Source: a virus | Direction: 5' to 3' (one strand) | Virus record (IMG/VR): IMGVR_UViG_3300030430_001000 | Span: 1-54,702 of that record | Length of the DNA stretch: 54,702 nt | Part shown: positions 924-53,259 of the stretch, piece after piece | How positions within the stretch are numbered: position 1 is the stretch's first letter | Layout of the letters: the number at the start of each line of letters is the position of its first letter | Translations under genes and position numbers: made by a program | Notes under the pieces: generated by a model | Told to the model about the DNA's origin: nothing | What the model saw: the letters and a program-made list of their open reading frames with translations, nothing else | Database searches by the model: none

Positions 924-1124
924 ATGAAAAATAAAGGCTATCACAATAAAGGTTTTATGTACGCAGTTATATTTATTATATTTGCAATGATACCTTTGCC
1001 ATTTTTTGTCAGTTGGTTAACTTGGGGTGACGACTTTATGAAACCTTTTATATCAATGAGTTTTCCTGACAGGTGTATTTATGAAGACAATAAACACAAC
1101 AAAGTGAACAGGTGTACAGAATGA
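924..1124 (+). CDS. Small single-pass membrane protein
   Basis: This 66-residue protein has one clear transmembrane stretch at about residues 11-32 (aliphatic and Phe-rich, ending with Trp). A short polar tail follows, with two Cys (C51, C64). It begins directly after the stop of the preceding gene, and its stop codon overlaps the integrase start (ATGA). Small membrane proteins in phage early regions often alter the host envelope or exclude other phages, but nothing in the sequence shows that here. Function unknown. Confidence 0.6.
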   Translation: MKNKGYHNKGFMYAVIFIIFAMIPLPFFVSWLTWGDDFMKPFISMSFPDRCIYEDNKHNKVNRCTE

Positions 1125-2242
1125 AACTACCAAAGTACGTACAAACAAAAAAATTAAAGTATGGAAGGATAGCTTATAGATACAATCCACCAAAAAAATA
1201 TATTGACAATGACGTTGTTTCTAGGTGCGAACTAGGAACAAATTTAGTTGCCGCTAAAGTAAAAGCATTAGAACTAAATAAAAAAATAAATGATTGGTGT
1301 GATAAATATGTCACTATTAAATCAATAGACAGTAAGTCAAAACTGTCAGACTTAATTGACATATATAAAAAATCTAACAATTACAATATGTTAAGAGATA
1401 AAACGAGAGGAGACTATGACTATCTATTAAAAGTTCTTGAGGAAACTGTAGGTGGTTTAAGGTTAAACAACATTACAACAAAGGTGGCAAAGAACTGCTA
1501 TGAAAAATGGACAGAAAGAGGAATACACTTAGCCAACCATACATGTGCTGTAGCAAATATACTGTTTAAGTATGGTGTACACATGGAACACATTGTTATT
1601 AATCCTTTTAGTACAATAAAACGCAGACAACCCAAGCAAAGAAAGACTGTGTGGACAAAAGAACAAGTCGTTGAGTTACTTAACGTGGCTTACAAAGACT
1701 TTACATATAGAAATATAGGTCTGATTGTACAAATGTCTTACGAATGGTGTCAAAGAATTGGTGACATGAGAATGTTAACGTGGGATAATATAGACTTTGA
1801 CAATTCTAAATTAGTACTTGAGCAATCTAAACGTAGAGCAGAAGTATTTTTACCTATCTCACAGGAACTATTAGAAATGCTCACACAACAGCATGAAGAC
1901 TTTGGCTTCCAACCCTACGTAGCACCTCAAACAAAGCCTTCAGGTGGCAAATATGAGCCGTACAGTATACATACAATAAGTAAAGTAGGTAGAAAGCTCA
2001 TGCAACTCGCAGGTATACCTGACAAATTACGTCTAATGGATTTAAGAAGGACAGGTACAACAGAAATGGTTGAAGCAGGTGTACCTTTAGGTCAAATAAT
2101 GGCAGTGACAGGACACACAAATCCACAGTCTGTAAAACCTTACATGAAAAATACTTTAACAAGTGCAAAAAATGCCTTGACAAAAAGAAACGCATCTGTA
2201 AAATACACTGTAAGTGTAAACAAAAGCAAGTGTAACACATGA
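1121..2242 (+). CDS. int: Tyrosine recombinase / phage integrase
   Basis: This 373-residue site-specific recombinase would integrate the phage chromosome by strand exchange at att sites. Residues 1-65 look like an arm-binding domain, 75-165 a SAM-like core-binding domain and 175-350 the catalytic domain. Visible active-site residues are Arg212 (CQRIGDMR), Arg309 in MDLRRTGTT, His332 in GHTNPQS and the nucleophile Tyr341 in KPYMK. The box II His position carries Met306. The start is ATG 1121, overlapping the previous stop; a GTG at 1112 in frame is less likely. The primase ATG overlaps its stop by 4 bp. The 3' end of the gene carries the first of a cluster of 13-bp palindromes. No excisionase or tRNA-like att core was recognised nearby. 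Confidence 0.93.
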   Translation: MKLPKYVQTKKLKYGRIAYRYNPPKKYIDNDVVSRCELGTNLVAAKVKALELNKKINDWCDKYVTIKSIDSKSKLSDLIDIYKKSNNYNMLRDKTRGDYDYLLKVLEETVGGLRLNNITTKVAKNCYEKWTERGIHLANHTCAVANILFKYGVHMEHIVINPFSTIKRRQPKQRKTVWTKEQVVELLNVAYKDFTYRNIGLIVQMSYEWCQRIGDMRMLTWDNIDFDNSKLVLEQSKRRAEVFLPISQELLEMLTQQHEDFGFQPYVAPQTKPSGGKYEPYSIHTISKVGRKLMQLAGIPDKLRLMDLRRTGTTEMVEAGVPLGQIMAVTGHTNPQSVKPYMKNTLTSAKNALTKRNASVKYTVSVNKSKCNT

Positions 2243-2399
2243 AAAATATAAAAAACACTTTAAATGAATTACACTTAAATGATAATGAAACTGTAAGAAT
2301 AAATTGTCCATTGTGTAAAGGACATAAAACATTTACAGTGTCTAAAGTATTAGGTAATCTACTTTGGAATTGTTACAGAGTTGGTTGCACTTTAAGTGG
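2205..2399. repeat. Cluster of 13-bp palindromes, integrase-primase boundary
   Basis: Five related sites were read by eye: 2205-2217 ACACTGTAAGTGT, 2255-2267 ACACTTTAAATGA, 2271-2283 ACACTTAAATGAT (half-site), 2329-2341 ACATTTACAGTGT and 2387-2399 GCACTTTAAGTGG. The last three steps are 16, 58 and 58 bp. The 2329 site is identical to 46159-46171, and the 2205 site is the exact reverse complement of 46096-46108. They lie inside coding sequence (integrase tail and primase zinc domain). They could be operators, replication iterons or integrase arm sites. Confidence 0.6.
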
Positions 2400-3057
2400 T
2401 AAGTCTAAAACAAATATGACTGCTACTGAAATTAAAAATAAGTTGTCTGTAGAGGGTGAGTCTAGTTTTCCTTCCCTAAGTTCCCTTTCCCTAGACTCAT
2501 CTCCTACAGATAATTTTTTTATGCCAGAACATGTTATAAAAGACGACATTAAAATAAAAACTTTTGTTGACAAATACAAATTACATAATCAAGAATTATA
2601 TTATGACGTTAAAGACAATAGAGTTGTGTTTCCAATAGTGCATGACTCAATAATTGTTGACGCTACAGGGCGTTCACTTGGAAATAAAAAACCTAAATGG
2701 TTGCGTTATGGAAAAAGTGACTTGCCTTTTGTTTTTGGACATGGTAGCGTCGCAGTAGTCGTTGAAGACTGTGTGAGTGCTTCAGTAATTGGTAATGAAG
2801 TATTCGTTGGGGTGGCTGTGTTGGGTACATCATTGCTGACTTCACACAAAAAGTACTTATCGCAGTTTTCAACGGCAATTATAGCCCTCGACCCTGACGC
2901 AATACCTAAGACACTACAATTTTTTAGAGAACTTACACCTTACGTTGACAGTGTAAGAGCTATGAAACTTGTTGACGATTTAAAATACAGAAACCCCACT
3001 GATTTAGAAAATTTAGACCAACACAGGAGATTAATTTATGGAACTGTCACTGATTAG
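2239..3057 (+). CDS. DNA primase (zinc-binding plus TOPRIM, T7 gp4A-like)
   Basis: This 272-residue enzyme makes RNA primers for lagging-strand synthesis. The N-terminal zinc-binding domain shows C23-x2-C26 and C45-x4-C50, which would select the template trinucleotide. The TOPRIM-type catalytic core follows, with Glu176 in VVVEDCVSA and D218-P-D220 in IIALDPDA holding the metals. It lacks a helicase half; the helicase is the next gene, overlapping by 20 bp. Splitting primase and helicase differs from T7 gp4, where both are one protein. ATG 2239 overlaps the integrase stop. The first 160 bases carry four copies of the 13-bp palindrome family. Confidence 0.85.
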   Translation: MKNIKNTLNELHLNDNETVRINCPLCKGHKTFTVSKVLGNLLWNCYRVGCTLSGKSKTNMTATEIKNKLSVEGESSFPSLSSLSLDSSPTDNFFMPEHVIKDDIKIKTFVDKYKLHNQELYYDVKDNRVVFPIVHDSIIVDATGRSLGNKKPKWLRYGKSDLPFVFGHGSVAVVVEDCVSASVIGNEVFVGVAVLGTSLLTSHKKYLSQFSTAIIALDPDAIPKTLQFFRELTPYVDSVRAMKLVDDLKYRNPTDLENLDQHRRLIYGTVTD

Positions 3058-31272: not shown

Positions 31273-32334
31273 TTATATTGAAGAAACATATAAAGCCCTA
31301 GTCAATGCTTCAGGTCTTAATATTTTTCTTCCGTATAGATGCATTCCTCTTACAATATCTGCAAATGAATCTGGGTCACGATATGTTTCCGTTTTGTTGA
31401 TTTGCTCTGCAGATGCTACTGCTGATGAATGCCCTGCACAAATGACACCAAAATGAGTACTTCCTGTTGCAGTAGCTCCTGTTGGTCCATTACCTTTTGC
31501 AGGTAAATTGTTTGACATATACACTTTAAAGCCGTGTATATTATTAAAGATTAATCCATTTTGCAATCCTGAACCACCGAAGTCAGAGTCTAACAAACGT
31601 GAGTCCTCGTCCTTTAATAATTCAGCGAACACTGGGTCAATAACTAACCAACGTCCTTGAGTGTCAACAAACTGTTGGTCTAGTTTTCTTGACATTCTTG
31701 CAATAATAGATAATGGTGAAGCTTTAGCTGTAGTAGTATTTAAACTATCTCCACCTGCTCTTGGTACAGCCACAATAGAGTTTCCTGATGAACCCCCATT
31801 AAAGTCTGCTGCGTCTACTTGCATGGACGCTAACAATTCATCTGAACCTGCTGTTGATACAGCTTTTGTACCAGATACAGTTGTATTAGCTGCACTTGCT
31901 ACAGTGTTCAAAGCAGATTGTTTAAATCCACATAAATATCCAAGAACTTCTTGGTCGAATTGGTCTGCGAGTCGATATGCTGCTCTATCACTTGCAAGAC
32001 TTTGAAAGTTTATATGAGAATGTGCTTCCTCAATGTCGTCAACTTTAAAAGCATAATAGTTTGCTTTGTCAACAACAAGAGAAAAATCCTCGTCGTCAAG
32101 GTCTTGTGGAGTGATTTGAACACCTCTAGCATATTCTTTCACAGTGATTTCAGGTTCTTTGATAATCTTAACAGTATCTCCGAGTCCAGAAATCTCCCCA
32201 AAATAATCAGAGTTAGTGATAGCTTCCACAACAGATGACTTACGAAATGCAAGTTGCACCTGTTTGGAATAGATTACTGGAGAGAAATTGCCGTTAGGTA
32301 AATTACCATAACCTGCTGCTGTTTGAAAAGCCAT
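31273..32334 (-). CDS. Major capsid protein
   Basis: This 353-residue protein is probably the HK97-fold shell subunit. Features typical of podovirus capsids are visible: an N-terminal arm (NFSPVIYSKQVQLAFRKSSVVEAITN), GDTVKIIKEPEITVKEYARG, the DLDDEDFSLVVDKANYYAFKVDDIE segment, and RAAYRLADQFDQEVLGYL. It follows the scaffold gene, has its own promoter (32539-32566), a 200-nt leader and GGAGG before the start. No separate head protease was recognised in this genome. Confidence 0.88.
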   Translation of the reverse strand: MAFQTAAGYGNLPNGNFSPVIYSKQVQLAFRKSSVVEAITNSDYFGEISGLGDTVKIIKEPEITVKEYARGVQITPQDLDDEDFSLVVDKANYYAFKVDDIEEAHSHINFQSLASDRAAYRLADQFDQEVLGYLCGFKQSALNTVASAANTTVSGTKAVSTAGSDELLASMQVDAADFNGGSSGNSIVAVPRAGGDSLNTTTAKASPLSIIARMSRKLDQQFVDTQGRWLVIDPVFAELLKDEDSRLLDSDFGGSGLQNGLIFNNIHGFKVYMSNNLPAKGNGPTGATATGSTHFGVICAGHSSAVASAEQINKTETYRDPDSFADIVRGMHLYGRKILRPEALTRALYVSSI

Positions 32335-36061: not shown

Positions 36062-36266
36062 TTATTTCGTCCTTTAATTTTTTTAATGTACGTAATGTGT
36101 TTACAGAACCTTGTGACCTATTTAAAATAGTAACACTGTCTGTCTGTTCCATTATTCTGTGTTGTTCAGTAATTAAAAAATCTAAATACTTACTGAACTC
36201 TTCCCACTGGTGGTGATTGCTCACCAGTGCCTTGAGCTTCTTGAGGTGCTCCTGCTTGTTGTTCAT
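36045..36266 (-). CDS. Small helical protein after the portal gene
   Basis: This 73-residue helical protein (KKLKALVSNHHQWEEFSKYLDFLITEQH) starts at ATG 36266, with AAGGA ten bases upstream; a GTG at 36287 is also in frame. It overlaps the portal gene's 3' end by 77 bp in another frame and the next gene by 17 bp. Small helical proteins in this slot occur in related phages and may assist portal or head assembly. Function unknown. Confidence 0.55.
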   Translation of the reverse strand: MNNKQEHLKKLKALVSNHHQWEEFSKYLDFLITEQHRIMEQTDSVTILNRSQGSVNTLRTLKKLKDEINGSSR

Positions 36267-38331
36267 TACCTGTAAATCCTTGTTCACCGGGAGTTGGTGC
36301 TACTCCTGTTCCTATTGTGCCACCTCCTGCACCAGTTGGGTCATTTGGGTCTGCTCCTGCAGGTGGTTGTTGTTCTTGTTGGGGTGTTGTGTCAGGTCTC
36401 ATTGCTTTCATTAGTTCAGCTTGTATTGCTGCTTCGTTCATATTATTTGTTACTTTATCTGGGTCTAAGTCCATTGTCTTTGCAATTTCTCTAATAATAT
36501 ATTGAAACTTAGCAAAAGGTGCAAGTGCAGGATTAGAAGCAACTCCTAAAAACTGCATGAGTCTTTGACTACGCACTTCATTTGCCATTAAACTTTCTGT
36601 TCCTCTAGCTTTTATTTCTAAGTCACCCTGTATTTCTGGGTCAAAGTCAAACTGCATATTAAATTGAAAGAAACCCTCGCCTAAAGGTCTTAGTAAATAG
36701 TCATCTATATTTTTAATTACAGTTTTTATGTTACCACTTGCAGCGTTCATTAACATAGATATACCACTGGCTGTTCTTCCAACACCTGTAATACCTGTTT
36801 GCCCATGTGCAAAAGAAGGAAAGCCTGTGCTTTCGTCTGCTAATTGTCTAGCTTTATCAAACAACTGCATATTTTCGTTACTTACATTTGGAAACTTTGT
36901 ACCAAATATAGCTTGTCCGGGTGCACCTCCCTGTCTTCTAAATACTTTTCCGGGGTACACACTTAGGTCTTGTCCGGGCACTAAATTAGTTTCGTCCACT
37001 TCTATTAAAAGATTTCCTGACAACACGGCATTGTCAACTGCCATACGCATAAATCCGTTCATTAGTGTCTGTGTGTCGTCCATGTTTTCTGCAAGACCCA
37101 CACCAAAAAAACTATAGGGATTAAGTTCATAAGGTGCTGCCATGTAAGGTATCTTCATAGGCTTAAATGGGTTTAAAACCATTCTTATTAATTTATTATT
37201 ACAAATCCATACGTTTGCTTGTAGTTCGTCAAATGTTTGTAACTCCTCTGGTATCTCTATATCTTGTTCTTTCAGTAAACTTGTATCTACCATACCCCAA
37301 TATTCAAATACTTCAAATCTCTCAATGTAATGTGAGTCAGCGTAATCTCCTAAATCGTCTTCCCAATATTTTTTATTATAGTCTTCCCCCATTGCAATAC
37401 AGTCATCTATAACCTGACTTCTAAAGTATGGACGTTTTTTAAGTGCTCTTAATTGTGAACGAGACATCTTGTGTCTTTCAATAGCATATGTTGCTTCGTC
37501 CATGTTACTTGCGTCTGGGTCAGGATAAAAATTCCACACAGATACATTAGATAACTGTGGTATTGTTTTAAACTCTGGGTTGTAATCACCTTCTTCATTC
37601 CAGTTTGGATATTCTTTATCTACAGCAAAAGGTCCTTTCATTACACCAGTTCCAAACAACGCCATTTCAAAAGACGTAGTTCTTAAATGTTTGTTTGCAC
37701 CTGACTCTTGTAATTGGTCGTGTATTTTCTTTTGCATTTTTTTAGCTGCAATCATGGCAGGACTAAACGTAACTGAGGTAGGTGTTTGACCTGCACCCTG
37801 CTCTAGTCCATCTATGTCCTCTAATTTTTTAGATAAAGGACCTAGTTTATCATTTAAAGAAGTTTGTGTAGCACCAGCAGGAAAGTCCATGCCGTCACCT
37901 GCAAAACCATACGGACTTTCGTTTTCATCTTGTTTTATAGCGTCTGGTTTTTGTGGGTCAAAGTTTACATTTTCAACAACACCCTCTGGTAATTCTGTTG
38001 GCTCTACTGTTAAAGGAAATTTATTACCTGCAAATAAAACGTCAACAATTTGTCCGTAAGCAGCAAGTGTTTTTGTTTTTGTTACTTTTATAAACACCCT
38101 AGACTTTTCAGCTTCTGTAAATTGAATATCGGAACTATATAGACCTCTGTAATTTTTATAGGCTCTTAACCATCTTTGTTCGTCATTATATCTATAGTCT
38201 TCTGCTTTATGATATCTACCCATTACAAAAGGCACAATATTTTCTACGTCATAGTCCTGTTCATTTTCTTTTTCAGAGTCTGCCAACGATACAGCGTCGT
38301 CATCTATCATTACTTCATTTTCTTCTGCCAT
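36190..38331 (-). CDS. Portal protein
   Basis: This 713-residue protein is encoded just after the large terminase and is likely the dodecameric portal at the DNA entry vertex. The N-terminus is acidic. Residues 35-75 (MGRYHKAEDYRYNDEQRWLRAYKNYRG) and the core with SVWNFYPDPDASNMDEATYAIERHKMSRSQL are typical of podovirus portals. A wing/crown region and a Gln/Pro/Gly-rich tail (PQQEQQPPAGADPND) follow. The end overlaps the next small gene by 77 bp. Confidence 0.82.
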   Translation of the reverse strand: MAEENEVMIDDDAVSLADSEKENEQDYDVENIVPFVMGRYHKAEDYRYNDEQRWLRAYKNYRGLYSSDIQFTEAEKSRVFIKVTKTKTLAAYGQIVDVLFAGNKFPLTVEPTELPEGVVENVNFDPQKPDAIKQDENESPYGFAGDGMDFPAGATQTSLNDKLGPLSKKLEDIDGLEQGAGQTPTSVTFSPAMIAAKKMQKKIHDQLQESGANKHLRTTSFEMALFGTGVMKGPFAVDKEYPNWNEEGDYNPEFKTIPQLSNVSVWNFYPDPDASNMDEATYAIERHKMSRSQLRALKKRPYFRSQVIDDCIAMGEDYNKKYWEDDLGDYADSHYIERFEVFEYWGMVDTSLLKEQDIEIPEELQTFDELQANVWICNNKLIRMVLNPFKPMKIPYMAAPYELNPYSFFGVGLAENMDDTQTLMNGFMRMAVDNAVLSGNLLIEVDETNLVPGQDLSVYPGKVFRRQGGAPGQAIFGTKFPNVSNENMQLFDKARQLADESTGFPSFAHGQTGITGVGRTASGISMLMNAASGNIKTVIKNIDDYLLRPLGEGFFQFNMQFDFDPEIQGDLEIKARGTESLMANEVRSQRLMQFLGVASNPALAPFAKFQYIIREIAKTMDLDPDKVTNNMNEAAIQAELMKAMRPDTTPQQEQQPPAGADPNDPTGAGGGTIGTGVAPTPGEQGFTGNEQQAGAPQEAQGTGEQSPPVGRVQ

Positions 38332-38533: not shown

Positions 38534-40093
38534 TTAATATCCAAATGTTTGGTCTGCGATTGGCATACTATTTGGTCTTGATGCGTGTGGGTCATAGTCA
38601 AAAATACTAAATCGTGGTCTTGACATAATACCATATCGTAGAGCGTCATACAAGTGGTCCTCTGAATTAGTGTCTATATCTTCAGGGTTCTTTTTATCCA
38701 ACGGAATAGCAGGTAACTGAGATATAAGATTAGTACAATTATTAAATATAACAAGTCGAGGCTCTTCTGTAAACTCGTCCACTTGTAGTCTTCTATGTAT
38801 TTCATTTTTACCTGCAACTCTTGACCCTTTACTTCTATCTGATTGTCTCCAACGACACCCTTTACTAATCATTTGCTCTGCTAATGAAGGTCCTGTATCT
38901 CCACGTTTATGCCATAAACTACTGTCTAGCACTCCGTATCGTATGTTTCCGTCTCCTGCTTCAGCTTCTAGTATCATGTCTGCTAAGTCCGTTGCAAGTA
39001 CTTTTGAAACATAAAGTTCTCTGTATACCACAAGTTGCTCACTAGGATTAACAGCAATCCAAACAACTGCAGACTTACTTCCATACCCATAGTCACATGC
39101 CCTAAACTTAACCCAATTATTAGGTATATTAAAAGGTTCAATAACATGTACGTCACGATTAAACTCAGTAAACGCTGCTCCTTCTTTAATATCCCAATCC
39201 CCATCAAGTAGTTGTCTTCTTTGTTGTTCAGGTAACGAAAGAAGCATTGCTTCATAATCTCCTTGTTCAGAGAGATATGGATTGTCAGTGAGTCTAGCTG
39301 GTATAAACCTACGTTTGAACAAAGCTTGACCTGCTTTTTTATGACCTGAAGGATATCGTAATGTTTCTCCTGTTTCAATATCTTTTGCCTCAAATGATTC
39401 TCCTGCAGGCGCAGGGTCAATAAACATTTTTTTTACCCAGTGATGACCCCTGCCTCCGGGGTTTGTTGTTGCTCTCATGTACACTGGTAAGTCTGGTGAT
39501 GTGCTTCTTAAACGTGACCTCATGTAATCCCAAGCAAAAGGTGTAGACCATTGTGTCAGTTCGTCAAATCCTATCCAACTAAATGCAAGTCCTTGATATC
39601 TTAATACGTCGTCGTCTCTGTCAAGATAGGATAGCCACAGTCTTGCACCTGACGGAGCTACCCATTGCATTTTTCTTTCAGACCATTTTATTCCTTTCCA
39701 GATTTTTGGGTATAGTTCTTGAGATTTGAATATAAGTTCACGTAACTCCTCCGTAGTGTGACGTAAAAGCAACCCACTAAAATGAGGGTGACCCATATAT
39801 CTAAGTGGGTCTGAAAGCATAGCATAAGATTTTCCACCACCTGCACTACCTCCATATAAAACCTCTCTTTCACTTGCAGCTAGAAAGTCTGTCTGAGGAC
39901 CTTCATTAGGTTTAAAAACAACATTGTAAGTTTCTTCAATAGGTAGTTGAGTACTAATACTAATGGACTGTTTTGTTTTCTTGGGTTGCACCTGTTCTTT
40001 CGGCTTCGATTTTCTTCGCTTTGGCGATAGCCTTTTCTGCATACTCTGCCCACTTGCGAATGCTTCTAGCTTGGTTCTTACGTTTTTTTTCAT
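38534..40093 (-). CDS. terL: Terminase large subunit
   Basis: This 519-residue motor packages DNA into the prohead. The ATPase shows Walker A at 81-89 (GGSAGGGKS) and Walker B at 173-178 (WIGFDE). The nuclease domain has D334 in FRACDYGYG, D390 in YGVLDSSLW and a late DHLYDALRYG. Residues 1-48 form a basic extension. The gene overlaps the upstream one by 134 bp (ATG 40093) or 83 bp (Met18, ATG 40042); either needs an unusually long overlap, since no later start precedes the conserved region. Confidence 0.95.
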   Translation of the reverse strand: MKKNVRTKLEAFASGQSMQKRLSPKRRKSKPKEQVQPKKTKQSISISTQLPIEETYNVVFKPNEGPQTDFLAASEREVLYGGSAGGGKSYAMLSDPLRYMGHPHFSGLLLRHTTEELRELIFKSQELYPKIWKGIKWSERKMQWVAPSGARLWLSYLDRDDDVLRYQGLAFSWIGFDELTQWSTPFAWDYMRSRLRSTSPDLPVYMRATTNPGGRGHHWVKKMFIDPAPAGESFEAKDIETGETLRYPSGHKKAGQALFKRRFIPARLTDNPYLSEQGDYEAMLLSLPEQQRRQLLDGDWDIKEGAAFTEFNRDVHVIEPFNIPNNWVKFRACDYGYGSKSAVVWIAVNPSEQLVVYRELYVSKVLATDLADMILEAEAGDGNIRYGVLDSSLWHKRGDTGPSLAEQMISKGCRWRQSDRSKGSRVAGKNEIHRRLQVDEFTEEPRLVIFNNCTNLISQLPAIPLDKKNPEDIDTNSEDHLYDALRYGIMSRPRFSIFDYDPHASRPNSMPIADQTFGY

Positions 40094-40939: not shown

Positions 40940-41398
40940 TTACACACCACTTAATTCAAAATGAGGTCCGTCAATGAAAGGTCTTCTACCCTGACTTCTT
41001 CTCAGGTCAATATATTCATTCATTACTTCTTCCATACTTAAATTAGTATTTGCTATGTCTTCTACATGCCAAGCTGCACCCCAACGTATTTTTACGCCCT
41101 CTAGCTTTGCAGCTTCCTTCATAGCGTCTGCTATGTTGTCGTAGACACTCAGTTCCCATGAAGCCCTCCCTCCTACATACGCCATTAAGTCAACTGCTAA
41201 TCCGTCAATATGTTTTGACTTCATAGTTTGACTAGCACCTTTTTCTACTAAAGCTTTTTGCTCTTCAACTGTTCTCAATCCACATATAACTCCAAAGTCT
41301 ACTTCTGTTAATGTTATAGCTTTTTTAACAACCTTAACTAAGTTTTCGTTTACCCCTTTTAACTTTGATAGGCTCTTCTTTGATAGTTTGAACGTCAT
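40940..41398 (-). CDS. Endolysin, M15 L,D-type peptidase
   Basis: This 152-residue zinc peptidase should cut peptide stems of peptidoglycan (VanY/M15_4, like the T5 endolysin). Zinc ligands are visible: H63 and D70 in SKHIDGLAVD, and H146 in DGPHFEL. VICGLRTVEEQ is the usual N-terminal marker. It starts inside the upstream zinc-ribbon gene (65-bp overlap), with GAGG ten bases before ATG. It belongs to a lysis block with the GTA-type holin. Confidence 0.9.
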   Translation of the reverse strand: MTFKLSKKSLSKLKGVNENLVKVVKKAITLTEVDFGVICGLRTVEEQKALVEKGASQTMKSKHIDGLAVDLMAYVGGRASWELSVYDNIADAMKEAAKLEGVKIRWGAAWHVEDIANTNLSMEEVMNEYIDLRRSQGRRPFIDGPHFELSGV

Positions 41399-42978: not shown

Positions 42979-43659
42979 TTAGTCTCCTTTGTTTTCTTTG
43001 TACAGATTGTTAAATGTTATCTCTGGGCTAAGATAACTGTCGTGTATCTCTGCTGAATGTAGATACTGACTTGGCTTAAAGTCAGGTGCACCCTCACCTG
43101 TTTGCCACAGAGCAGGACTCGTTGCTCTGACTCTGTTATTTGGAAGTGCAACAATGTTGCCTGTCCATTCTCCTGCGTCTGTTAACTGCAACACATGACT
43201 TTGTTTATGTTGTGCTGCGTCATCTGAAATATGACTTTCGGTATAGTCTACAGTAAATAAGTACTTAGCCTGATAAAACTCTCCGTCTATTTTACATATC
43301 CACGGACTAGAGCTGACCCTGTCTAAAACAACAACCGAGTGATGATGAGAACTACAATCCCACGGCTGTACTAAATGTGTTTCCATTCTAGCAGGAAACT
43401 GTTCGTGAGGCTCATCTGATACAAGTGCTGTAATTGGCATTCTTGCCCACATTGCACCCCCATGTATATTTTCACTGTCGTCAAAGTCACTTTCACAACC
43501 TGTAAACACAACCTGAAAACTTAAACATCTATCTGGTATTGTGTTCACTGCAATCGCTTTTGCGTGTAAAAATTCACCATGATATTTTTCATGGTTATGT
43601 GTAAACTCTTTTCGTACCCAACAATTAAAGTAGGGTACGTTACTCATTAAGTAGGGCAT
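42979..43659 (-). CDS. Conserved marine-phage virion-region protein
   Basis: This 226-residue protein begins MSNVPYFNCWVRKEFTHNH after a short lead. It has ARMPITALVSDEP, LVQPWDCSSHHHSVVVLDRV and YQAKYLFTVDYTES. I recall this arrangement from proteins common in marine phages of several types, with no known function. The His and Trp-rich centre could bind a metal or sugar. It sits between small basic genes in the lysis/late block. Confidence 0.65.
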   Translation of the reverse strand: MPYLMSNVPYFNCWVRKEFTHNHEKYHGEFLHAKAIAVNTIPDRCLSFQVVFTGCESDFDDSENIHGGAMWARMPITALVSDEPHEQFPARMETHLVQPWDCSSHHHSVVVLDRVSSSPWICKIDGEFYQAKYLFTVDYTESHISDDAAQHKQSHVLQLTDAGEWTGNIVALPNNRVRATSPALWQTGEGAPDFKPSQYLHSAEIHDSYLSPEITFNNLYKENKGD

Positions 43660-45552: not shown

Positions 45553-45837
45553 TTACCATTTTACTCTATGAGACCAGTACTTCGCTGACAGCTTCGTTGT
45601 TGCCTCGCCGTGTCTGGCATAATAACTTTTTCTACGTGCCTTGTCCTTCGCTGTCTTTGGATTTTTACCTGCACCTCGTACACCCTGCTGTCCAAAGCGT
45701 ATAAACTTGTACTTACCACTCTCAGATGCCATCACTTTATGTGATTTTGTTGGGTGGTCAGGGTCACGTTTAGCTTTGTTTACACCTTCAAGCCCTTCAG
45801 CTTTCATTTTGTTCTTGACACGTTCAGGAATTGCCAT
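45553..45837 (-). CDS. DUF6321-like conserved phage protein
   Basis: This 94-residue basic protein matches a family I recall as DUF6321: KSHKVMASESGKYKFIRFGQ, QGVRGAGKN, then RRKSYYARHGE and SAKYWSHRVKW. The last two motifs are highly conserved in cyanophages and other marine phages; the function is unknown. It overlaps the upstream gene by 14 bp and begins the late arm. Confidence 0.75.
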   Translation of the reverse strand: MAIPERVKNKMKAEGLEGVNKAKRDPDHPTKSHKVMASESGKYKFIRFGQQGVRGAGKNPKTAKDKARRKSYYARHGEATTKLSAKYWSHRVKW

Positions 45838-46036
45838 CTGTCCACCCTTCAGCCCTCATTGCTCTTTCTACATGCTTCAAAGAAAAAGACTTACCATAGT
45901 GTGCGTCCACTGCTTTCTTTACATAGAAGACATCACTGTGGGGAATATGTAATTTATCCAAATTATCTGTACGTAGTGCTTCATAGAAAGCTTCTAATAC
46001 ATTATCTGTACATAGTTTTACTGATTTTTTAGCCAT
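45824..46036 (-). CDS. First gene of the leftward arm; possible small regulator
   Basis: This 70-residue helical protein is closest to the leftward promoter. The end, FYVKKAVDAHYGKSFSLKHV then ERAMRAEGW, resembles a helix-turn-helix or winged-helix half, so a DNA-binding role is possible. ATG 46036 is chosen; TTG 46042 is in frame. Neither has a good RBS, hinting at weak or leader-controlled translation. If it binds the palindromes just upstream it would be an autoregulator, but this is a guess. Confidence 0.55.
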   Translation of the reverse strand: MAKKSVKLCTDNVLEAFYEALRTDNLDKLHIPHSDVFYVKKAVDAHYGKSFSLKHVERAMRAEGWTDGNS

Positions 46037-46060
46037 TGTCAAGTATTTTTAAAATAAAAA

Positions 46061-46184
46061 ACACTTTAAATGTACGTATTTTAATCTTTATAAGTACACT
46101 TACAGTGTTTACACTTAAAGTGTTTTCATTTAATGTGTTTTTTTATTATTTCTAGTGTACATTTACAGTGTACACTTTAAGTGA
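46061..46184. repeat. Cluster of six 13-bp palindromes downstream of the leftward promoter
   Basis: Sites: 46061-46073 ACACTTTAAATGT, 46096-46108 ACACTTACAGTGT, 46111-46123 ACACTTAAAGTGT, 46126-46138 TCATTTAATGTGT, 46159-46171 ACATTTACAGTGT and 46172-46184 ACACTTTAAGTGA. Three lie exactly 15 bp apart and the last two are adjacent. They fall about +20 to +143 from the predicted leftward start site, a fitting place for operators. The same family recurs at 2205-2399. Confidence 0.65.
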
Positions 46185-46210: not shown

Positions 46211-46239
46211 ATTATATCATTTTTTTAATCCCTTGTCAA
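46211..46239 (-). promoter_or_regulatory. Near-perfect sigma70 promoter of the leftward arm
   Basis: On the minus strand TTGACA (46239-46234) is followed after exactly 17 bases by TATAAT (46216-46211). TG stands one base before the -10 box, as in extended -10 promoters. Transcription should start near 46204, giving a leader of about 165 nt that contains the palindromes. This should be a strong host-polymerase promoter for the late arm. Confidence 0.8.
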
Positions 46240-46720
46240 TACTTATTTTGTATATATTTAAAATAAATCAAACATTTTTATGAATAGTTGCAAATGTGTT
46301 ACAGTTAGTGTATGTGGTTAACAGTGAATTTTCCTAATCTGTGTATTTGTATGTACATATATACGCTAGGGGGTAGGGTGGCACTCGCAGAATGTTGCTT
46401 TTTTTCCTTTTTTTTTATTTTTTTTTCTTTCTTTTTTTAAAAAGTTTTTTCTTTTTATAAATGTTTTATACTTTTTTTAATTTATTATTTATTTTTATTG
46501 AGTATTTTTAAATTTATTAACTCATATATTATCAGTTACTCTTTAACGTCGATTAAAAGACTGTAATTTTTGAAGTGTAACGTTTAGCAATGACCATGCT
46601 CAATTTTTAAAAGTTAATGACACATTATATATATACAAAATTATGTGTTGTATTTTTGCAACAGTAAAAGCAGCTAAAACATTTTTTTTAAATTCAGTAC
46701 AAATTATTTAATTTTTTTTG

Positions 46721-46749
46721 TTGACACTTTTAATTAAAAGTTCTAATGC
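46721..46749 (+). promoter_or_regulatory. Candidate rightward promoter
   Basis: TTGACA (46721-46726) with a 17-base spacer to TAATGC (46744-46749), a weak -10 box, lies 32 bases before the first early gene. The -35 is perfect, but the -10 match is poor, so an activator or a different -10 may be used. Confidence 0.5.
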
Positions 46750-47065: not shown

Positions 47066-47476
47066 ATGAATACACAAAACACAATATCGAATGATGAATT
47101 AAAAGTATATGTATGTAATAAAAGAGAGGCAGTAATTATAGAAAATGAAATATTATTTAAAAAGAATAAGAAAAATATTAATTTTAAATTAGTTGGTAAT
47201 GAAAAGTATTTTTATGCGAATGAGTGTGCTATATTTACTAGAGAAGTTATGAAACATGGATTTTCAAAATTTGATTATCATAAAAACTTAAATCATTTAA
47301 ATGAAGATATCAAAAAATATGGAATATCTTTTCATAAATACTCAATTAATATTGGATATACTCAATATGGTACAGATTTAAAAAGATTTAAAAATAAAGA
47401 TGAATTACTAGGTTATGTTATTGGATATAATGAAGCTCTAAAAGATGAACTCACCGTATTAATGCAAGATAGATAA
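47066..47476 (+). CDS. Early protein sharing a duplicated N-terminal segment
   Basis: This 136-residue protein contains YVCNKREAVIIENE near residue 15. It is encoded by a 41-bp segment (47108-47148) repeated at 50015-50055 with one mismatch, where it is half of a zinc ribbon. Here the second Cys pair is missing, so the motif has been grafted on or its partner lost. The rest has Lys/Asn/Tyr-rich helices. Function unknown. A hairpin lies just after the stop. Confidence 0.55.
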   Translation: MNTQNTISNDELKVYVCNKREAVIIENEILFKKNKKNINFKLVGNEKYFYANECAIFTREVMKHGFSKFDYHKNLNHLNEDIKKYGISFHKYSINIGYTQYGTDLKRFKNKDELLGYVIGYNEALKDELTVLMQDR

Positions 47477-52034: not shown

Positions 52035-52265
52035 ATGGCAAATAAACAACTCTATGTGTGTGAGATATGTTCATCAAGCAATGTCGTATTTCATGCTGAA
52101 GTCATGTGGCATTGGGAACTACAGGACTTTATGGTTGTAGGTGAAACACAAAAAGCTAAATGTTTATCTTGTAATTCAAACATAAATGGCTTACTGTTAG
52201 AAACAAAGGAACTAAAGGAAAAGGAAAAAAGTTATGAAGAAATTAGTAGTCGTGTCGTTATGTGA
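52035..52265 (+). CDS. Small zinc-ribbon protein before the methyltransferase
   Basis: This 76-residue protein has C9-x2-C12 (YVCEICSSS) and C43-x2-C46 (AKCLSCNSN), a four-Cys zinc site, then a charged helix. AAAGGAGAG precedes ATG. It overlaps the cytosine methyltransferase by 32 bp, so translation may be coupled. Role unknown, probably nucleic-acid binding. Confidence 0.6.
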   Translation: MANKQLYVCEICSSSNVVFHAEVMWHWELQDFMVVGETQKAKCLSCNSNINGLLLETKELKEKEKSYEEISSRVVM

Positions 52266-53259
52266 CGGCATATCATGTGGACAAATAGCACTTAACAAAA
52301 TAGGATATGATTGGTTAGAGTACCATGCATTTGAAACAGACAAGTACGCAAGTGCCGTTGCAAAGTACAACAATAAATCAATGTATCAACATGGTGATGT
52401 AAGAAATTATCTAGGTGTATATGACAAATATTTGTATGCACGTAATGTAGATTTATTTTTATCTGGCTTTCCTTGTCAGCCGTACTCTGTAGCTTCAAAG
52501 AAGAGGTTAGGTACTGAAGACGAAAGAGATTTATCAACTATTGTATTTGACGCAATAAAACTATTCAGACCTAAGTATTTTTTGATAGAGAACGTGCCAA
52601 TGAAAAAGACAGACCAAGATAGAATCTCAAAAGAATTAGGTGTAGAACCTGTTGTTATCAACTCGGCTGATTTTTCTGCACAAAATCGCAAGAGATTATA
52701 TTGGACAAACATACCTGTTTCTAAATGGACAGACAAAGGCATTGTTTTAAATGATATTGTAGAGGAGGGTTTTGTTGACAGAAACAAGTCACATTGCCTA
52801 GACGCAAACTATCATAAAGGTGGAAATCTAAAAAGCTATTTTAATAAACATAGAAGACAACTTGTATTCAGCAACATGGAAACTTCAAAGTGTAAACAAG
52901 TCGGAGTAGCTGACTTAAAAGGACATGACATTTTAAAACGTGTATACTGTACTTCTGGTAAAGCACCTACTGTAAATGCCATGACAGGTGGAAACAGAGA
53001 ACCTAAGATTGTCTGTGGTTCTATTAAAAAAGACAATGTACTTGTTGACAATAAAAAGATGTATTGGAGAGCATTAACACCATTGGAATGTGAAAGACTA
53101 CAGACAATTCCTGACGGCTATACTTCAAAAGGTGACTTCAATATTACAACCATAGACACTGACGTAAAAGACATTAGCAACCATCAAAGATATAAACAGG
53201 TAGGTAATGGTTGGACAGTAGACGTTGTTGCACACATACTGAAAGGCATGAACGCATGA
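52234..53259 (+). CDS. C5-cytosine DNA methyltransferase (Dcm-like)
   Basis: This 341-residue enzyme adds a methyl group to C5 of cytosine from S-adenosylmethionine, probably to shield phage DNA from host restriction. Motif I is SLCDGISCGQIAL, motif IV is GFPCQPYS with the catalytic Cys, motif VI is IENVP and motif VIII is QNRKRLYW. Then come TPLECERLQTIPDGYT and the motif X QVGNGWTVDVVAHIL. No partner endonuclease lies beside it. It has the target-recognition region between VIII and IX (about residues 170-270). AAGGAAAA precedes ATG. Confidence 0.92.
   Translation: MKKLVVVSLCDGISCGQIALNKIGYDWLEYHAFETDKYASAVAKYNNKSMYQHGDVRNYLGVYDKYLYARNVDLFLSGFPCQPYSVASKKRLGTEDERDLSTIVFDAIKLFRPKYFLIENVPMKKTDQDRISKELGVEPVVINSADFSAQNRKRLYWTNIPVSKWTDKGIVLNDIVEEGFVDRNKSHCLDANYHKGGNLKSYFNKHRRQLVFSNMETSKCKQVGVADLKGHDILKRVYCTSGKAPTVNAMTGGNREPKIVCGSIKKDNVLVDNKKMYWRALTPLECERLQTIPDGYTSKGDFNITTIDTDVKDISNHQRYKQVGNGWTVDVVAHILKGMNA

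Follow-up and report, generated by a model that had tools for sequence, protein, structure and literature searches.

The question raised by this locus is why palindromes of one type occur within coding sequence at the integrase-primase boundary of a phage genome and occur again in the control region ahead of its late operon. In the original prediction these palindromes were proposed to be shared operators that couple late transcription with integrase or primase expression, and iterons or integrase arm sites were named as the alternatives. The window, which is the whole stretch of 54,702 nucleotides that was analysed (IMGVR_UViG_3300030430_001000), is the complete or near-complete genome, with terminal redundancy, of a marine podophage of the HMO-2011 type; phages of this type have been described as dominant and widespread in the ocean (PMC9038755). 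Its first and last 100 bases are identical at 99 of 100 positions and it is therefore fair to describe it as circular; on the circle the two clusters of palindromes are separated by about 10.6 kb, close to the 10.7 kb first given.

Palindromic sites in the genome

The window was assigned to the HMO-2011-type group on the presence of both the integrase-primase-helicase-polymerase A module and the late module. It shares with the described phages of this type (PMC9038755, PMC6918029) the integrase, the primase, the helicase, the polymerase A with a DnaJ-like motif and the late genes, all in equal order, and its integrase and primase are about 48-60% identical to those of Puniceispirillum phage HMO-2011 and of Roseobacter phages CRP-1 and CRP-345. 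The tyrosine integrase gene (1112-2242, plus strand) was recognised by PF00589 and by its phage homologues and the gene of the Toprim/zinc-ribbon type DNA primase (2239-3057, plus strand) by homology to the HMO-2011 and CRP primases, and the primase start codon overlaps the integrase stop codon. The late operon reads leftward and includes the genes of the endolysin (40940-41398), the large terminase (38534-40093), the portal (36190-38331) and the major head protein (31273-32334). Its first ORF (45824-46036, minus strand), coding for 70 amino acids with weak similarity to DUF7076, almost always adjoins the late array of sites described below. A ferredoxin-family match was also seen in the late operon (42979-43659) and the early region encodes a C-5 cytosine DNA methylase (52234-53259).

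The palindrome is of the type ACACT-N3-AGTGT and was sought with the pattern ACACTNNNAGTGT, allowing up to two mismatches. At the integrase-primase boundary it was found at 2205 with no mismatch, at 2255 and 2387 with two mismatches each and at 2329 with one, and in the control region it was found at 46061, 46096, 46111, 46159 and 46172. The first boundary site, the predicted operator O1 (ACACTGTAAGTGT, 2205-2217, plus strand), is a perfect dyad, and the predicted operator O3 (ACACTTTAAATGA, 2255-2267, plus strand) spans primase codons 6-10. Between O1 and the primase start lies a half-site, AAGTGT (2228-2233, plus strand), which is weak in the window itself and at whose place relatives have AAGTGATA or GAAAGTGATA. 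Further into the primase gene, all on the plus strand, are a weaker site that matches the pattern only if its centre is shortened to 2 nt (ACACTTAAATGA, 2271-2282) and the palindromes ACATTTACAGTGT (2329-2341), which encodes TFTV of the primase zinc ribbon, and GCACTTTAAGTGG (2387-2399). The control region carries five predicted operators: TCACTTAAAGTGT (46172-46184) and ACACTGTAAATGT (46159-46171), both read on the minus strand, the perfect dyads ACACTTAAAGTGT (46111-46123) and ACACTTACAGTGT (46096-46108), and ACACTTTAAATGT (46061-46073). The sites are spaced by 50, 74 and 58 nt at the boundary and by 35, 15, 48 and 13 nt in the late array. The palindromes first reported at the boundary are thus all present, the site at 2329-2341 is indeed identical to that at 46159-46171, and reverse complementing 46096-46108 gives 2205-2217, as claimed. 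The reported 19-base identity between O3 and the control region is real as well, except that its position was off by one base and is actually 2248-2266 and 46054-46072. This 19-mer is the longest exact word common to the control array and the rest of the genome, and the longest shared exact word for four other AT-rich intergenic chunks was at most 14.

Counting sites over the whole genome was dropped as evidence, since the 37 sites with up to two mismatches are no excess over the 43 +/- 6 found in shuffles, and information comes solely from how the sites cluster and where they lie. The boundary and the control region hold the two densest 200-bp clusters in the genome, and the three perfect matches in the genome all lie inside these clusters. 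When the codons of the window alone were shuffled synonymously, at least four sites were obtained in about 0.9% of the trials and at least two sites with no more than one mismatch in 0.5%. It is the comparison with relatives that provides the strong support.

Promoters next to the sites

The genome was scanned for promoters with at least 11 of the 12 consensus bases and a spacer of 16-18, and operator sites were sought within 60 nt after the -10 box. Eight near-consensus sigma70-type promoters were found and only two of these, the late and the primase promoter, have operator sites. The predicted late promoter, TTGACA-N17-TATAAT (46211-46239, minus strand), matches the consensus at 12/12 bases, as no other promoter in the genome does. 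It points towards the late operon, the leader of which (46061-46184) holds the five sites, the array beginning about 20 nt past the predicted start with the site at 46172-46184, and this promoter is also present in most control-region representatives. The predicted primase or replication promoter, TTGACA-N16-TAAAAT (2177-2204, plus strand), sits in the 3' end of the integrase gene and reads into the primase gene. Its -35 box, TTGACA (2177-2182), lies inside the integrase codons for A-L-T and is separated by 16 nt from the -10 box, TAAAAT (2199-2204). O1 follows this -10 box with no gap and its centre at 2211 coincides with the predicted +1, if the start is assumed to lie about 7 nt after the -10 box. 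In relatives the -10 box of the primase promoter reads TACAAT, TATAAT, TAAAAG or TATAAG at a spacing of 16-17 nt. Inverted-repeat sites are therefore found at promoters, as is to be looked for with a dimeric repressor.

Two other elements of the control region were noted. A probable rightward early promoter (46721-46747) has a perfect 16-bp palindrome, ACTTTTAATTAAAAGT (46726-46741), just past its TTGACA, and this palindrome may mark a different operator. The non-coding element GTGGTTAACA-N..-CCTAATCTGTGTATTTGTATGTACATATA (46313-46372) shows strong conservation across the control regions of many relatives and could be an early promoter, an origin or an attP core.

Comparison with relatives

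Within 100 bp of the primase start, on each side, the motif density in about 158 relatives was 0.40 per 100 bp, compared to about 0.07 elsewhere. The Leu codon that forms part of the -35 box in the A-L-T stretch of the integrase was TTG in 70 of 86 dereplicated relatives, against a background of 23%. In the synonymous tests, for which relatives of about 50% amino acid identity were used, the last 25 integrase codons had 34 sites where 9.4 were expected from the shuffle and the first 14 primase codons had 30 where 6.8 were expected, and the blocks neighbouring the integrase end and the primase start were at or near the shuffle expectation. Further downstream, primase codons 28-42 had 10 sites against 9.3 expected (z 0.3) and codons 42-56 had 5 against 1.5 (z 2.9), a weak signal. 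The z values treat the sequences as independent and are raised by their common descent. Per-column synonymous conservation in the primase gene was highest at 2254-2270, that is at the 2255 site, which lies inside the most synonymously constrained 5-codon window of the gene, and it was absent at 2329-2341 and 2387-2399 in these relatives. Conservation of wobble positions, which had been suggested as a check, is therefore borne out at 2255-2267 and, as a region, for the promoter with O1, whereas 2329-2341 and 2387-2399 fail or nearly fail it. That all four coding palindromes are operators was rejected for 2329 and is doubtful for 2387 on these tests; judged by the sequence comparison, both probably follow from the primase protein sequence, and the one at 2329-2341 is probably no selected operator. 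O1 as a universal perfect dyad was likewise rejected, as it is present in some clades only; clades that do not have a clean O1 dyad have a site further downstream or lack the internal promoter. At the helicase start no sites were found in the relatives. Half-sites at the polymerase start reached a z of 9 purely through codons shared within a clade, without any palindrome, and were rejected as a third locus because their source is a KLTLDVEN codon string shared by a clade.

The boundary is organised differently in some relatives. In one clade (L278-L282 and L286-L290) the integrase end reads CTCAACACA or similar instead of TTGACA, and the internal promoter is seemingly absent while the late array is kept. 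In L165 and L166 (CRP-2 and CRP-603) an HNH endonuclease gene lies between the integrase and primase genes, and ACACT-type sites are missing from the boundary and the late array alike.

To ask where else such units occur, 2.9 million viral contigs were scanned by DNA pattern only, with no protein information. The primase-type pattern, TTGACA-N16-TAnAAT-nCACTnnnAGTG, gave 21 matches and all 21 were at the integrase/primase boundary of the HMO-2011-type group. The late-type pattern matched one contig only when the spacing was fixed, and a variable gap was used instead. This gave 83 stretches, of which 80 were checked; 77 of these lay no more than 400 nt from the late ORF and were correctly oriented, one of the remaining three had a longer leader and two were at a contig end, and none of the 80 was located away from an HMO-2011-type late promoter. 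Since the sites at the boundary exceed the synonymous expectation and the pattern matches are confined to the boundary, the sites at 2205 and 2255 are, on this comparative evidence, genuine. In two relatives (L296 and L299) the integrase ends earlier and the coding -35 reads CTGACT, and TTGACA-N16-TATAAT-ACACTGTAAGTGT is found in the non-coding gap after the integrase stop and before the primase gene. Protein coding can hardly account for such an apparent move of the promoter-operator unit out of coding DNA. The same site is thus present at two promoters and is conserved as DNA, which is a further property to be looked for with a dimeric repressor.

The two loci were also compared for linked change by scoring the half-site balance, AAGTG versus AAATG or AACTA, in the 34 dereplicated genomes that have both regions. 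The half-site types of the control array and the boundary were correlated (rho 0.53, permutation p 0.001, n=34), and in twelve other windows rho was at most 0.40, two downstream windows giving 0.36-0.40. For example, the control array of L148 has CATATAAATG and its boundary sites are GCATTATAAATGC, AAAATGATA and TAAATGATT, with AATGA where relatives have AGTGA, and L284 and L287 have TAGTTAAACTA in the control region and TAGTATACT(A) at the boundary. A cruder test of own versus other similarity between boundary and control region was not significant (p 0.086, no better than the control windows), and the support from linked change is for this reason only moderate. What these comparisons indicate is that the half-site type changes together at the late and primase loci. 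The late arrays of L197, L200, L205, L207, L208 and L042 use another half-site (TAGTTAAACTA or TAGTTAAAACTA), which is an operator switch within the group.

A common regulator and its alternatives

The identity of the sites, the near-consensus promoters, the conservation beyond protein constraint and the exclusive pairing of promoter and site at two loci lead us to favour, with a probability of roughly 0.7, the explanation that both clusters are operators of one dimeric phage repressor that co-controls late and replication transcription. Of the coupling originally proposed, the part that concerns the primase is well supported by the promoters, the conservation and the half-site change. Coupling to integrase expression finds no support, because there are no sites upstream of the integrase gene, the boundary sites are at its 3' end and the promoter there reads into the primase gene.

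The same DNA anatomy would be expected, with the opposite sign or another source of the protein, if the sites bound a phage activator or a host regulator. That no phage repressor gene is recognisable speaks for this, and a host regulator would give equal linked changes at the two loci. However, O1 lies directly past the -10 box and the late array past +1, where activators normally do not bind, and the array is shared by phages that infect different hosts (SAR116, Roseobacter), with a type that changes between phage clades, so that we consider this explanation unlikely. A dyad on +1 and an array just past a consensus promoter are more readily reconciled with a dimeric repressor than with an activator, although late sites that start about 20 nt past the predicted start are less typical of an initiation repressor and count against it. 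It is very improbable that the sites act as RNA hairpins in leaders. The late array is in a transcribed leader and the arms show paired changes in some clades, but the left arm of O1 would be untranscribed because O1 is centred on the predicted +1, and stems of five A/U-rich pairs would be weak.

Both alternatives named originally, integrase arm sites and iterons, fit poorly. Arm-type sites near attP would agree with the position at the integrase 3' end, and the related CRP-3 integrates into tRNA-Met (PMC6918029). Such sites should all lie within an attP-sized interval by the core, whereas a larger and equally conserved cluster is found at the late promoter, at a distance of about 10.6 kb, both loci are locked to promoters and the sites are dyads; we regard arm sites as most improbable. 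Iterons of a replication origin beside the primase, to which the location at the start of the replication operon would be suited, are given as little credence by us, as the palindromes are irregularly spaced and are not direct repeats of a fixed period, it is the late promoter that has the stronger cluster, and the relocated unit of L296 and L299 keeps promoter and operator as a block.

How would a dimeric repressor act at these two loci? Since both promoters resemble host sigma70 promoters, something would have to keep them off early or in the lysogen. We infer that the promoter boxes are active and that a protein which is phage-encoded binds the sites and represses. A single dimeric regulator with sequence specificity, in all likelihood a repressor encoded by the phage, would act at two host-sigma70-type promoters. 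The late promoter would drive the leftward structural and packaging operon, and the primase-helicase-polymerase operon would be driven by the promoter within the last 25 integrase codons. Bound there to O1 at +1 and to O3 just inside the primase gene, the regulator would block initiation, and at the late promoter it would fill the array from about +20 to +150, so that escape or elongation would be blocked.

Operators of the lambda CI and P22 C2 type likewise consist of short inverted repeats, adjoining or overlapping promoters, that recur at two units of one phage. Unlike in those systems, the units here are the late and replication operons, one of the two promoters lies concealed within integrase codons, the late array is past +1 and no repressor gene is recognisable. 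The operators and stoperators of mycobacteriophage L5 are similar in that there are multiple 13-bp sites, some past a promoter, from which bound repressor could stop elongation (PMC9283540). The L5 sites are asymmetric, number more than twenty, are spread genome-wide and are bound by a monomer (PMC9283540), whereas the sites here are dyads and not asymmetric 13-mers oriented with transcription, and they form two clusters instead of being scattered in number, the genome-wide count (37 versus 43 expected) not being above chance. The late array is also carried by HMO-2011, CRP-1 and CRP-345. In the 2022 survey of HMO-2011-type phages (PMC9038755) no form of 'promoter', 'repressor' or 'palindrom' occurs, and a search of open-access papers gave none on promoters of the group, as judged by titles and abstracts; because of this silence the two-promoter operator set of HMO-2011-type phages is regarded as undescribed within that open-access literature. 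Some HMO-2011-type phages carry an integrase and their transcriptional control appears undescribed. One switch could restrain both replication and late genes, and should these phages be temperate, this would be the step that decides between lysis and lysogeny. The genome also offers a case of a promoter with its operator kept up within protein-coding DNA, and in two relatives moved outside it.

One operator family at two promoters is a concrete handle for finding the regulator. No clear helix-turn-helix or phage repressor gene could be recognised in the phage. The rightward early ORF at 47066-47473 was rejected as the regulator, since its helix-turn-helix-like match (E 0.02) is below the cut-off and it has no homologues in the compared relatives. 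The product of the first late ORF has three predicted helices at a pLDDT of 70, a weak model, and it was rejected as the regulator by fold because the PDB search gave no match (best E 2.7). Its residue 58 associates with operator type, being only among the top few columns and confounded by clade. That this 70-residue DUF7076-like protein is the regulator is unlikely. It would then represent a novel family of small DNA-binding proteins, repressing both the late promoter of its own operon and the replication promoter within the integrase gene, and residue 58 in the predicted last helix would determine its specificity and covary with operator type. As a separate observation, TTGACAATG (46034-46042), which has no obvious Shine-Dalgarno sequence and the ATG of which is the start of the first late ORF, is kept in nearly all relatives, the distant CRP-2 included.
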